Below are positions 3,134 through 10,091 of a stretch of DNA of 10,695 nucleotides, one piece after another (the first letter of the stretch is position 1; each line of letters begins with the position of its first letter). The translations under genes were made by a program, and so were the position numbers. This stretch comes from Candidatus Latescibacterota bacterium (GTDB taxonomy: Bacteria; JAAXHH01; JABIQT01), in NCBI GenBank assembly GCA_018667995.1, contig JABIQT010000176.1, positions 1 through 10,695 on the forward strand, given 5' to 3'. The notes under the pieces were generated by a model that was not told where the DNA came from, ran no database searches, and was given only the letters and a program-made list of their open reading frames with translations.

Positions 3134-3730
3134 GTGTCCTGCAGGGGCTCCTCTGTCCGATGGCCGCTGGTCGCGTTGCTGATTCTGTGGACGCCGAAGT
3201 CCGTATGGGCACAGAAAACGGAACCGACCATTGAGATGGGCGTAGGTGGTGGGCTCGGTTTTCCGAGCGGCTCTCCATCAATTCGGAGTGGTCCGTTCGC
3301 CTAGGGCCATGTCGATGTAGAGCTGCGGGACAGTTTCTGGATGACGGGTGGATTGGGCGGAATGCGCTCAACCTCTTCTGGCGATCCTGATTTTACCTTG
3401 AATTTGTACCATGTCAGACTGGCACTGCGTTACGATATTCCAATCGGTGAAGACCGTGGAATCAGGCTTCACGGAGCAGTAGGCCTGATTTACCAGTACT
3501 TTGATCCATCTGGTGTGGTTAATGCTGAGGACGCATTTGGATTCCTCGGAGTCCATGCGGAACTCAGAGTCTCCTATCCCCTTGTCCACAAATGGCGATT
3601 GCAGAATTATGTGAGGTTCACGACGGTCTCCGCGGACTTAGCTGTTCTGCCCGTAACGAAGAGCAAGGGATTACCGACCTCGCGAGCTGTGCACATGCAT
3701 CTCGGACTTGCCTTAACGTTCCGTCCGTGA
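3134..3730 (+). pseudogene. Outer-membrane beta-barrel-like protein interrupted by one in-frame TAG
   Basis: Two open stretches lie in the same frame, separated only by TAG at 3302-3304. Read through, they make one protein of about 198 residues. The N-terminus has an arginine followed by a hydrophobic core (WPLVALLILW) and a Val-Trp-Ala cleavage-like site, a plausible signal peptide. The rest has alternating short hydrophobic strands and glycine-rich turns (MGVGGGLGF near the start, HLGLALTF at the end), like small outer-membrane barrels. An aromatic residue near the C-terminus fits the class. The stop falls after the first strand, and the frame beyond it is intact for 142 codons, so a single substitution (CAG to TAG is one option) or a base-call error would explain it. 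The start is unsure: GTG 3134 fits the signal peptide best; TTG 3071 has an AAGG upstream; TTG 3008 and GTG 3020 are also in frame. Family and function are not recognised. Confidence 0.6.
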
Positions 3731-4020: not shown

Positions 4021-5277
4021 ATGGATAATGTCATTGCAGTAATCTTGGGAGGGGGGCGCGGTACGCGCCTTTTCCCCCTGACCACACGACGGTCAAAGCC
4101 GGCAGTGCCAATTGGTGGTCAATACCGGTTGATCGATATTCCCATTAGTAACTGTCTTCACGCTGAGATCCGCAAAATCTACGTGCTGACGCAGTTCAAT
4201 TCCGTATCGCTCCATCGCCACATTCATCAGACTTACCGTTTTGACGATTTCTCCGCGGGCCGGGTGGACATTCTTGCAGCCGAACAGACCGACGAACATG
4301 TGGACTGGTATCAAGGGACGGCCGACGCAGTGCGAAAGCAAGTTCGTAGGTTTTCTGCGAACAAGGCGGACCAGGTTCTAATCCTTTCGGGCGATCAGCT
4401 CTATCGCATGGATTACAGAAAACTCATTGCCCATCACCGTGATAGCGGCGCGGATATTACGCTCGCCGTTCAGCCTGTGTCGGGCGAAGCCGCTCGTCGC
4501 TTTGGAATTGTCAAGGCTGATGTGAATGATAGAATTTCAGATTTCCATGAAAAACCCCAGGAAGAGACAGACCTGGCTGAGCTCCGGAATGCCAGCACCG
4601 GCGGGACCGACGATCGATATCTGGCATCTATGGGTATCTATGTTTTTAATCCTGACGTACTGCATGAAGTCCTATCCGGTAGTACCGAGGAAGACTTTGG
4701 CAAACACATCATTCCTCGTGCCATAAACAGCCACAGGGTCCACGCCTTCGAATTTGATGGCTATTGGGAAGATATTGGGACCATAAGGGCGTTCTTTGAA
4801 GCGAATCTTGCTATGACCGATCCGGTGCCATCTTTCGACCTGTACGAGCCAAGACCATTCTACACGCATCCGCGATTCTTGCCTGGAGCAAAAATGGAGG
4901 ACTGCACGACCGATAGGGTAATCGTGGGTGCGGGGTCTGTGCTGTTTGGCGCAGCTATCTCCCGCGCTATCATCGGCATACGCAGCCGCATCGGCCCGGA
5001 TGTAGATGTGAATCGAGCCATAATCATGGGAGCGGATTTCTTCGAAACAGAGGAAGATCGCGCGGAGAACCGCGAAATGGGACGGCCGGACGTTGGTATC
5101 GGCCGTGGTTCAGTGATAGAGAATGCCATCATCGACAAGAACGCGCGAATCGGGGAGAACGTCCAGATTCGTAATGTTGATAAGTTATCTGATGCCGATG
5201 GCGACCAATATTTCATACGGGACGGTATTGTTGTTGTCCCGAAGAAGGGCATTATTCCCTCCGGAACAGTTATCTGA
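4021..5277 (+). CDS. glgC: Glucose-1-phosphate adenylyltransferase (ADP-glucose pyrophosphorylase)
   Basis: A 418-residue protein of normal GlgC length. It makes ADP-glucose from glucose 1-phosphate and ATP, the committed step of bacterial glycogen synthesis, in the cytosol. The nucleotidyltransferase domain opens with GGGRGTRLFPLT (10-21), followed by SKPAVPIGGQYRLIDIP (25-41), SNC (43-45) and VLTQFNS (55-61). WYQGTADAVR (96-105), LSGDQLYRMDY (122-132), FHEKP (175-179) and GYWEDIGT (247-254) complete the active site. Residues from about 290 on form the left-handed beta-helix domain that carries allosteric contacts in known enzymes. Motif style is close to the cyanobacterial/plant-like branch rather than the enterobacterial one. 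The ATG at 4021 follows an A-run and has no clear Shine-Dalgarno, so initiation may be weak or near-leaderless; the N-terminus MDNVIAVILGGG is nonetheless the expected one. No glgA, glgB or glgP is in the window. Confidence 0.96.
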   Translation: MDNVIAVILGGGRGTRLFPLTTRRSKPAVPIGGQYRLIDIPISNCLHAEIRKIYVLTQFNSVSLHRHIHQTYRFDDFSAGRVDILAAEQTDEHVDWYQGTADAVRKQVRRFSANKADQVLILSGDQLYRMDYRKLIAHHRDSGADITLAVQPVSGEAARRFGIVKADVNDRISDFHEKPQEETDLAELRNASTGGTDDRYLASMGIYVFNPDVLHEVLSGSTEEDFGKHIIPRAINSHRVHAFEFDGYWEDIGTIRAFFEANLAMTDPVPSFDLYEPRPFYTHPRFLPGAKMEDCTTDRVIVGAGSVLFGAAISRAIIGIRSRIGPDVDVNRAIIMGADFFETEEDRAENREMGRPDVGIGRGSVIENAIIDKNARIGENVQIRNVDKLSDADGDQYFIRDGIVVVPKKGIIPSGTVI

Positions 5278-5279
5278 CT

Positions 5280-5284
5280 GGAGG
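5280..5284 (+). promoter_or_regulatory. Ribosome binding site of the csaA remnant
   Basis: GGAGG starts 3 nt after the glgC stop and ends 6 nt before TTG 5291, the expected first codon of csaA. This perfect site and spacing support the gene having once been translated from there, in the same transcript as glgC. Confidence 0.65.
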
Positions 5285-5290
5285 CAACGT

Positions 5291-5619
5291 TTGGCGGGTT
5301 ACGAGGACTTTTACCGCTTGGAGATTTGAGCCGGGGTAATTACCGGGGTGCTTGACTTTCCTGAAGCAAGGAACCCGGCCTATCGTCTCCCATCGATTTC
5401 GGAGAGCTTGGTTTGATGAACTCAAGTGCTCAACTCACCGGGCATTACGCGAAGAAAGATTTAGTTAATAAGAGAGTTGTTGCTGTCACGAATATCCCTC
5501 CCAAGAGAATCGCGGGATTCATTTGCGAAGTATTGGTACTTGGAGTCACAGATTCTCATGGCGAAATTGTCCTGCTAGAGTCAGATAGGCCTGTGCCAGC
5601 CGGCGCACGGATTCATTGA
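5291..5619 (+). pseudogene. csaA: CsaA-type tRNA-binding/chaperone protein, broken by one TGA and one frameshift
   Basis: Joining two frames rebuilds a whole CsaA of about 109 residues, the family's normal size. From TTG 5291 the frame reads LAGYEDFYRLEI, then TGA at 5327-5329, then AGVITGVLDFPEARNPAYRL. This matches the CsaA N-terminus, where an arginine codon stands in place of the stop (CGA to TGA would do it). At about 5389-5391 (a run of three C) one base appears missing. The next frame continues IDFGELGLMNSSAQLTGHY and then RVVAVTNIPPKRIAGF, EVLVLG and RPVPAGARI, ending in TGA 5617-5619. CsaA is a small dimeric OB-fold protein related to the C-terminal tRNA-binding domain of methionyl-tRNA synthetase, with reported chaperone activity in Bacillus subtilis. 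The open part at 5416-5619 alone would give a 67-residue half-protein lacking the first strands, unlikely to fold properly. Sequencing error is an alternative, but two independent lesions would be needed. Confidence 0.88.
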
Positions 5620-7395: not shown

Positions 7396-7902
7396 CTAGA
7401 TCATTCTCCGAATGAATCCTCGACTTCTTCGATCCAAATTCTGCAGGTCTTTGATCTCAAATCGATTGCCGTGCGCGTCTGATATGATAAACCTATCAGG
7501 GGAAACCTCTACGATGTGTTCTCTGATACCGTTAAAACTGATTGAAACGGCGCCACGATCAGTCATACCCTCTATCAGTGTACGACCTGCTGAATTCTCA
7601 GCTCGGTCCAGCCGGGTGATTTGTGGGGTGAAATACCGCCAGCTGAGTTCCTCTTCTAAGATGGTCCGAGTTTTTTCCTCCAACCCATTGAGCGTCTCAA
7701 CCATACCAATGTAAGTCTCTTCCAAGTCGAAGAAGGATATGAATTTGTTTTCGTCTGACAGTGGAAACGCCCGGTAAACTCGCACTGGCCCCCACAGTTT
7801 ATCAGCCTCGCTCAAATAGGGAAAACCGTGATCGCCCCGATCAAGTTTCAGATCCTCCGGATTCAGGAAGATTTGGTTCCGGCGTTCCAGTGTGTCGGTC
7901 AT
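7396..7902 (-). CDS. DUF1854 family protein, partner of the adjacent ABC transporter
   Basis: A 168-residue soluble protein with no signal peptide or membrane segment. It carries features of DUF1854: an N-terminal FLNPEDLKLDRG stretch, GPVRVYRAFPLSDENKFISFFD in the middle (split here as GPVRVYRAFP and DENKFISFFD), ELSWRYFTPQITR, and a C-terminal DAHGNRFEIKDLQNLDRRSR. The family's biochemical function is not established. In other bacteria DUF1854 genes commonly follow a long ABC transporter gene, sometimes near cyanophycin genes (recalled from annotation practice, not testable here). Its ATG (7902-7900) overlaps the transporter's TGA (7901-7899) as ATGA, so the two are probably translationally coupled and made in fixed proportion. 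GGGG at 7911-7914 lies 8 nt upstream and can serve as ribosome site. A regulatory or accessory subunit for the transporter is a reasonable inference. Confidence 0.82.
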   Translation of the reverse strand: MTDTLERRNQIFLNPEDLKLDRGDHGFPYLSEADKLWGPVRVYRAFPLSDENKFISFFDLEETYIGMVETLNGLEEKTRTILEEELSWRYFTPQITRLDRAENSAGRTLIEGMTDRGAVSISFNGIREHIVEVSPDRFIISDAHGNRFEIKDLQNLDRRSRGFIRRMI

Positions 7903-10091
7903 CCTATGATCCCCACGAGGCTGGAGACATTATGGTGAAGTTGCACAAGCTGGAAATATTCACCCTCTCGTGCCATCAACTCGTCATGCGTTCCCAATTC
8001 CACAGGACGGCCCTGTTTCAGCACCAGTAGCCGATCGGCATCTCTCAATGTCGATAGCCTGTGGGCTATGGCGAAGGTAGTCCGTCCCTCCATCAGGCGT
8101 CCCAGGGCTTCTTGGATCTTCTTTTCGGTTTCCAGGTCCAGGGCCGAAGTGGGTTCATCCAGGATAAGAATTCGCGGATCATGCAGGATGGCTCTGGCTA
8201 TGGCAATCCTTTGTCTTTCGCCGCCTGAGAGCCGGCCGCCTCTCTCGCCTACTAAGGTATCGTAGCCATCTGGAAGTTTCAGGATGAATTCATGGGCATT
8301 CGCATTGATGGCTGCCTCGATGAGCCGGTCGCGCTCTACATCCGGATTCCCGTAGGCGATGTTGTCCGAAACGCTGCCGGCGAATAGAAATGGGTCCTGC
8401 TCCACATAACCGATCTGCCTTCGCAGATCTGTGAGTCGCATCTGTCGGATATCGATACCATCTATAAGAATGGCACCCTCGTCTACCGTATAAAAGCGGC
8501 AAAGCAGCTTGATGAAAGTCGATTTTCCCGCACCGCTGTGCCCCACCAGGCCAATCATCTCTCCCGGCTCAATGGTAACATCAAGATCCTGAAGGACCGG
8601 TTGATGTGCCAGGTAACCAAACATGACATTCCGGAATTCCACTCTACCCTCGATATGTGGGTCTACAACGGCGCCCTCCGGTTCATACGTTTCTGCTGGA
8701 CTGTCTATTACCTCAAAAGTACGGGTGATCGCAGTCATCATTTCCGGAATCCAGTCAGCCATACTGGTGAGGTACTGGACCGGCCCGTAGAACATGGCCA
8801 GATATCCGAAGAACAGAATCAGGGTGCCCAACGTCATAGTGCCCTGTTGCACCTGTTGCCCGCCAAACCACCAGACGAGCAGTCCACCAATGGATACAAC
8901 AAAGGCGAGAATTGGACGTACTGTCCTGGATCTTACGTGGATGTTGCGCTCTGATTCGAAGACTTTCTCGTTCTCATCGTGCATACGCTCGGACTGGCGT
9001 TGCTCCTGAGCAAAGATCTTCACCACTCTGATACCTGAGAGCGAGTCAGTGATCTGTTCGAAGAAGGTTGCCCAACGATCCCACGACTTGCCGTAATACC
9101 ATGCCAGATACTTCTCAATCTTGACGGATGCTACTACTATTATTGGTATGGGCGCCAGTACGAGGATCGCCAGTTGCCAGTTCATAGCGAAAAGTACAGC
9201 TGACATCCCGATGACCATCAGTCCCTGCTGAATGAGCTGAGGCGCGAAGTCTATCCAGAAGTAATGTATTGATTTCGCATCGCGGGCAATCCGAGCCATC
9301 AGACCGCCAGACTGCTGAGTATCATAGTATTTGAGCGGTAGCAATTGGAGCACTCTGAGGAGTTCGGATCGGGCGTCAAACGCCAAACGGTCTCCCAGGG
9401 TACTCATCATCCTTCCACTCCAAATCTGCACGATCACATGCACAATTCGCGAAAGGACCAGGGCCAGAACCACAGGTACTAGCAGACCAAACTGATTCGG
9501 TACCGTCAGTACATCGTCTACCAGGATTTTCGTGAGATATGGTGGCAGCAAATCAATAATGGAGGCGACCATAGTGATCATCACGGCCGTAGTGAGCGTA
9601 CGCCAGTGTGGTCCACAGAATGCCCAGAGGCGGGAAAATGTCCGAAGGTGGGCCGCATGACTGGACCAGTCCGGTGGCGCCTCCTCTTCGATTATGGGGT
9701 ATCGGTCCCAGATATCGGATCGGTAGTTGGGGCCGCAGACGGCCTGCAGGCGTTCCACTGCATTGGAGAAATCATCTGCCACGGTATGGGTAAATCGTAG
9801 CAGTCGAAGGTCCTGGCCCGCTACAACCGTATGAAGCGCACTGACACCAGCCATAGGCTCGATGGAGATCTTGGTGATATCCGAAAGTGCGAAATTATGG
9901 AGGATCTCGCCACCGTGACCTACAGGCGCAATTACGAGCAAGCGTGACGTGGTGACAGCCAGAAATGTATCCGACATCCGCCCATCAGTGCCGACATCCG
10001 CGCGACAGGCGAACCGGGGAGGCCCGGCCTGTTTATGCTGGCTGTGAAGTATTCCGTGCAACGGTTCGGGAAACGTCTCCGTCATCAACAT
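7899..10091 (-). CDS. ABC exporter-type half-transporter (fused membrane and ATPase domains) with N-terminal extension
   Basis: A 730-residue protein, about 130-150 residues longer than ordinary 580-600-residue half-transporters. Residues 1-145 are an extra soluble domain with alternating beta strands (DTFLAVTTSRLLVIA, DITKISIEP) ending in a helix; this looks like a PH-like fold. Residues about 160-450 form the six-helix type I exporter membrane domain. The ATPase domain has Walker A GHSGAGKS (517-524), Q-loop Gln565, signature LSGGERQ (621-627), Walker B ILILDEP (641-647) and H-loop His677, all intact, so it should hydrolyse ATP. It probably works as a homodimer in the inner membrane. The substrate is unknown; the sequence resembles MsbA/multidrug exporters only in general. 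ATG 10091 is chosen because GGGAG lies 8 nt upstream; ATG 10085 is in frame two codons in. Only 3 nt separate it from the preceding gene's stop, and it overlaps the DUF1854 start. Confidence 0.93.
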   Translation of the reverse strand: MLMTETFPEPLHGILHSQHKQAGPPRFACRADVGTDGRMSDTFLAVTTSRLLVIAPVGHGGEILHNFALSDITKISIEPMAGVSALHTVVAGQDLRLLRFTHTVADDFSNAVERLQAVCGPNYRSDIWDRYPIIEEEAPPDWSSHAAHLRTFSRLWAFCGPHWRTLTTAVMITMVASIIDLLPPYLTKILVDDVLTVPNQFGLLVPVVLALVLSRIVHVIVQIWSGRMMSTLGDRLAFDARSELLRVLQLLPLKYYDTQQSGGLMARIARDAKSIHYFWIDFAPQLIQQGLMVIGMSAVLFAMNWQLAILVLAPIPIIVVASVKIEKYLAWYYGKSWDRWATFFEQITDSLSGIRVVKIFAQEQRQSERMHDENEKVFESERNIHVRSRTVRPILAFVVSIGGLLVWWFGGQQVQQGTMTLGTLILFFGYLAMFYGPVQYLTSMADWIPEMMTAITRTFEVIDSPAETYEPEGAVVDPHIEGRVEFRNVMFGYLAHQPVLQDLDVTIEPGEMIGLVGHSGAGKSTFIKLLCRFYTVDEGAILIDGIDIRQMRLTDLRRQIGYVEQDPFLFAGSVSDNIAYGNPDVERDRLIEAAINANAHEFILKLPDGYDTLVGERGGRLSGGERQRIAIARAILHDPRILILDEPTSALDLETEKKIQEALGRLMEGRTTFAIAHRLSTLRDADRLLVLKQGRPVELGTHDELMAREGEYFQLVQLHHNVSSLVGIIG

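Follow-up and report, generated by a model that had tools for sequence, protein, structure and literature searches.

CsaA is a tRNA-binding, chaperone-like protein, and csaA is a small, dispensable bacterial gene. Proteins of the Trbp type are close structural analogues of CsaA. The two groups have the tRNA_bind OB-fold superfamily (PF01588) in common, although Trbp111 and the MetRS beta-like proteins (TIGR00399 type) form a separate subfamily. CsaA is present in some bacteria without Trbp (PMC11286949). Here we describe a csaA locus in a stretch of 10,695 nucleotides from a Candidatus Latescibacterota bacterium, which is referred to below as the window. It aligns with the described CsaA proteins (TIGR02222; 2nzh/2nzo, 3g48 and 1gd7) over the full length and agrees with them in the position of the start codon, and the blocks IDFG-LG, SAQ-T-Y, PPKRIAGF and EVLVLG are common to both. 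It differs from the family in its coding sequence, in which codon 13 is a stop and the frame breaks at codon 34.

The csaA locus downstream of glgC

The outline of a complete csaA is found at positions 5291–5619, directly downstream of glgC, when two reading frames are joined. The features are:

4021–5277, + strand: glgC (glucose-1-phosphate adenylyltransferase), intact; from the ORF call and curated profiles
5280–5284, + strand: GGAGG, ribosome-binding-like site, followed after six bases by TTG 5291
5291–5389, + strand: csaA, most likely a pseudogene, N-terminal part (codons 1–33); from frame translation and profile scan
5327–5329, + strand: in-frame TGA at codon 13; the residue is arginine in 85 of the 87 intact homologues
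5387–5391, + strand: frame break, one base short of what the family needs; from the frames and the homologue alignment
5392–5619, + strand: csaA, C-terminal part in the other frame, including its own stop; from frame translation and profiles

The frame starting at TTG 5291 reads LAGYEDFYRLEI, then TGA, then AGVITGVLDFPEARNPAYRL, while the other frame reads IDFGELGLMNSSAQLTGHY..., contains IDFGELG and ends at TGA 5617–5619. A preliminary description of this DNA had noted the GGAGG six nucleotides before the TTG, and had placed the internal TGA at a family arginine; the site is indeed seen, and the alignment of the 87 intact homologues bears out the arginine. The same description located a one-base loss within the CCC at 5389–5391. 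From codon 33 (CTC) to the ATC of IDFG there are only two bases (5390–5391), at a point where the homologues have one variable residue, and one base is therefore missing. Since this alignment column is variable in the family, the missing base can be placed no more finely than about 5387–5391, so that the loss stands but its exact position does not. A mechanical ORF call on the region yields 68 residues from TTG 5413, or 67 from ATG 5416, and nothing longer, in line with the earlier expectation that automatic annotation would give only a fragment.

When the sequence is read through, with X standing in for the stop and for the two-base codon, its score against TIGR02222 chap_CsaA is 134.7 bits, above the curated cut-off of 119.65; the sequence also exceeds the cut-offs of two related tRNA-binding-protein (CsaA-type) profiles. 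Positions 1–106 of the 107 in TIGR02222 are covered, at normal length, after read-through only, which agrees with the original proposal that a complete CsaA results from joining the frames. Among solved structures the nearest are 2nzh and 3g48, both named CsaA and aligned over the full length, and the alignment with 3g48 starts at the TTG and runs to the end. A CsaA profile was also built from the 87 intact CsaA sequences and used in a six-frame scan of the window and of shuffled DNA. Each half of the gene is significant in its own frame (E about 1e-8 and 1e-27), and the shuffled window sequence gave chance scores only, with nothing comparable to the two halves.

The gene is thus csaA, and it carries two lesions in the assembled sequence. 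On account of the TGA and the frame break, the feature is most probably an ordinary pseudogene that belongs to a known family and was inactivated recently: a recognisable gene with two disabling mutations, encoding no CsaA protein. It resembles ordinary bacterial pseudogenes in combining a nonsense mutation with a frameshift, in being a short, dispensable gene and in its probable position at the end of an operon, and no difference from them is evident.

The neighbouring GlgC scores above the cut-offs of NF002772 (591.8 against 537) and TIGR02091. A comparable GlgC, 33–39% identical, was found in two of the 14 relatives searched (G001 and G011), the other 12 giving weak partial matches only. 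It is probable that glgC and csaA belong to one operon and are co-transcribed. None of the 87 loci containing CsaA has glgC beside csaA, and the neighbourhood therefore offers no conserved link between the two genes.

Upstream of glgC, the ORF at 3155–3730 (+ strand) is outer-membrane beta-barrel-like, with a signal-peptide-like start, and is broken by a single in-frame TAG at 3302–3304. Its homologues in G001, G011 and G013, of the same order, are open (197–204 residues, 26–30% identity). This would probably be another pseudogene on the csaA contig, or else another error. Elsewhere in the window, an ABC transporter and a DUF1854 protein (7396–10091, − strand) resemble the cyanophycin-metabolism-associated pair NF052233 and NF052234, both scoring under the curated cut-offs.

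Probable decay and related proteins in the phylum

Most of the residues that are invariant across the 87 CsaA homologues are kept in csaA, which suggests that the inactivation is recent. Two changes other than the stop, F69I and S79C, fall at positions that are near-invariant in the family, and they would fit a relaxed constraint on the gene; Q73R is a change that 2nzh and 3g48, both solved CsaA proteins, also have. Translation from TTG 5291 would stop after 12 residues, and internal re-initiation near 5413–5416 could yield no more than a C-terminal fragment without the first OB-fold strands. With such products in prospect, the gene product is most likely absent, and the function of csaA has presumably been lost. 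One could imagine that the fragment from 5413 or 5416 has been kept and is expressed as a functional truncated tRNA-binding peptide, given that its frame of 67–68 residues is open and retains conserved residues. This is hardly credible, however: a compact OB fold would be left without its first third, and S79C alters a near-invariant position within what remains.

csaA was searched for in 16 genomes of the phylum, namely this one and 15 order-level relatives, and was not found in the 15 others. The matches in the phylum besides the window are MetRS-type domains or a stand-alone protein with an open frame of about 118–199 residues, at 28–32% identity. The absence of csaA from the 15 other genomes implies that it is dispensable in the phylum and that its absence is tolerated. 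Intact csaA occurs in other phyla, and the matches to CsaA queries come from distant genomes, with 46–58% identity.

The present genome (G000) retains an intact copy of the stand-alone protein at C624, which is a MetRS beta-like tRNA-binding protein. It was ruled out as a CsaA, as it scores 43 bits against TIGR02222 compared with 134.7 for the broken csaA. Because a related tRNA-binding protein has been kept, and because Trbp and CsaA proteins are alike, the loss of csaA is unsurprising, and the retained Trbp-type protein may compensate for it.

Probable gene decay and alternative explanations

We put the probability at about 0.8 that csaA, which starts at TTG 5291 and probably shares a transcript with glgC, was disabled by two mutations, one of them nonsense and the other the deletion of a single base. 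The lesions would accordingly be carried by living cells. It is less likely that csaA is intact in the organism and that both lesions are artefacts, arising where coverage was low or strains were mixed. The assembly is fragmented and of moderate quality, with 1165 contigs totalling 6.06 Mb and a completeness of about 85%, and errors could arise in one place from thin coverage or a mixture of strains; moreover, the survival of most family-invariant residues is what an intact gene would show. The interruption of the ORF at 3155–3730 could mean that the contig is locally poor, but it fits local decay too and so does not decide between decay and error. On the other side, one of the two csaA lesions is a substitution, untypical of long-read error. 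The two lie within about 65 bases of each other, and the long genes of the window (glgC, a 730-residue ABC transporter and a PurB-like lyase), like its other assigned genes, are open.

Further evidence comes from a survey of lesions. Of 61 contigs sampled, namely 60 and the window, 44 were used (276 kb, including the window), and ORFs of other loci were aligned to these. The alignments in the best frame span about 88 kb of coding sequence, with a leaning to conserved genes, and outside csaA they reveal neither a stop nor a frame break in mid-gene that is convincing. The csaA TGA is the sole well-supported internal stop (24 references) and the csaA frame break the sole one backed by many references (26). 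Many of the stops first listed were due to wrong-frame reference ORFs, and most of these were removed by the best-frame filter; the leftover ones were judged by eye to fall in shadow frames or at the ends of genes and were rejected. Errors spread at a general rate would not be expected to put two lesions into csaA and no comparable ones into about 88 kb, and decay is preferred over error for this reason. The decay first proposed from the sequence is therefore supported, by two independent lesions with no counterpart in the aligned sequence of the sampled contigs. Contamination of the bin is a conceivable source of the contig: its GC content and tetranucleotide distance are typical of the sampled bin contigs, although its genes resemble those of phylum relatives weakly.

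Both halves of csaA are still family-like, as they would be if the TGA were read as an amino acid and a programmed frameshift then gave a full CsaA. Such recoding is very improbable, and we reject it, because it requires two unrelated events within 110 codons and because TGA is the normal terminator of other genes in the window, glgC included. In addition, the frame break has no apparent slippery heptamer, and the family residue at the stop is arginine, not cysteine or selenocysteine.

The interruptions of csaA and of the ORF at 3155–3730 on one contig suggest local gene decay, or a questionable contig. The inactivation of csaA is most likely ordinary gene decay. For annotation, a lone call of 67–68 residues would mask the probable loss of CsaA in this genome.
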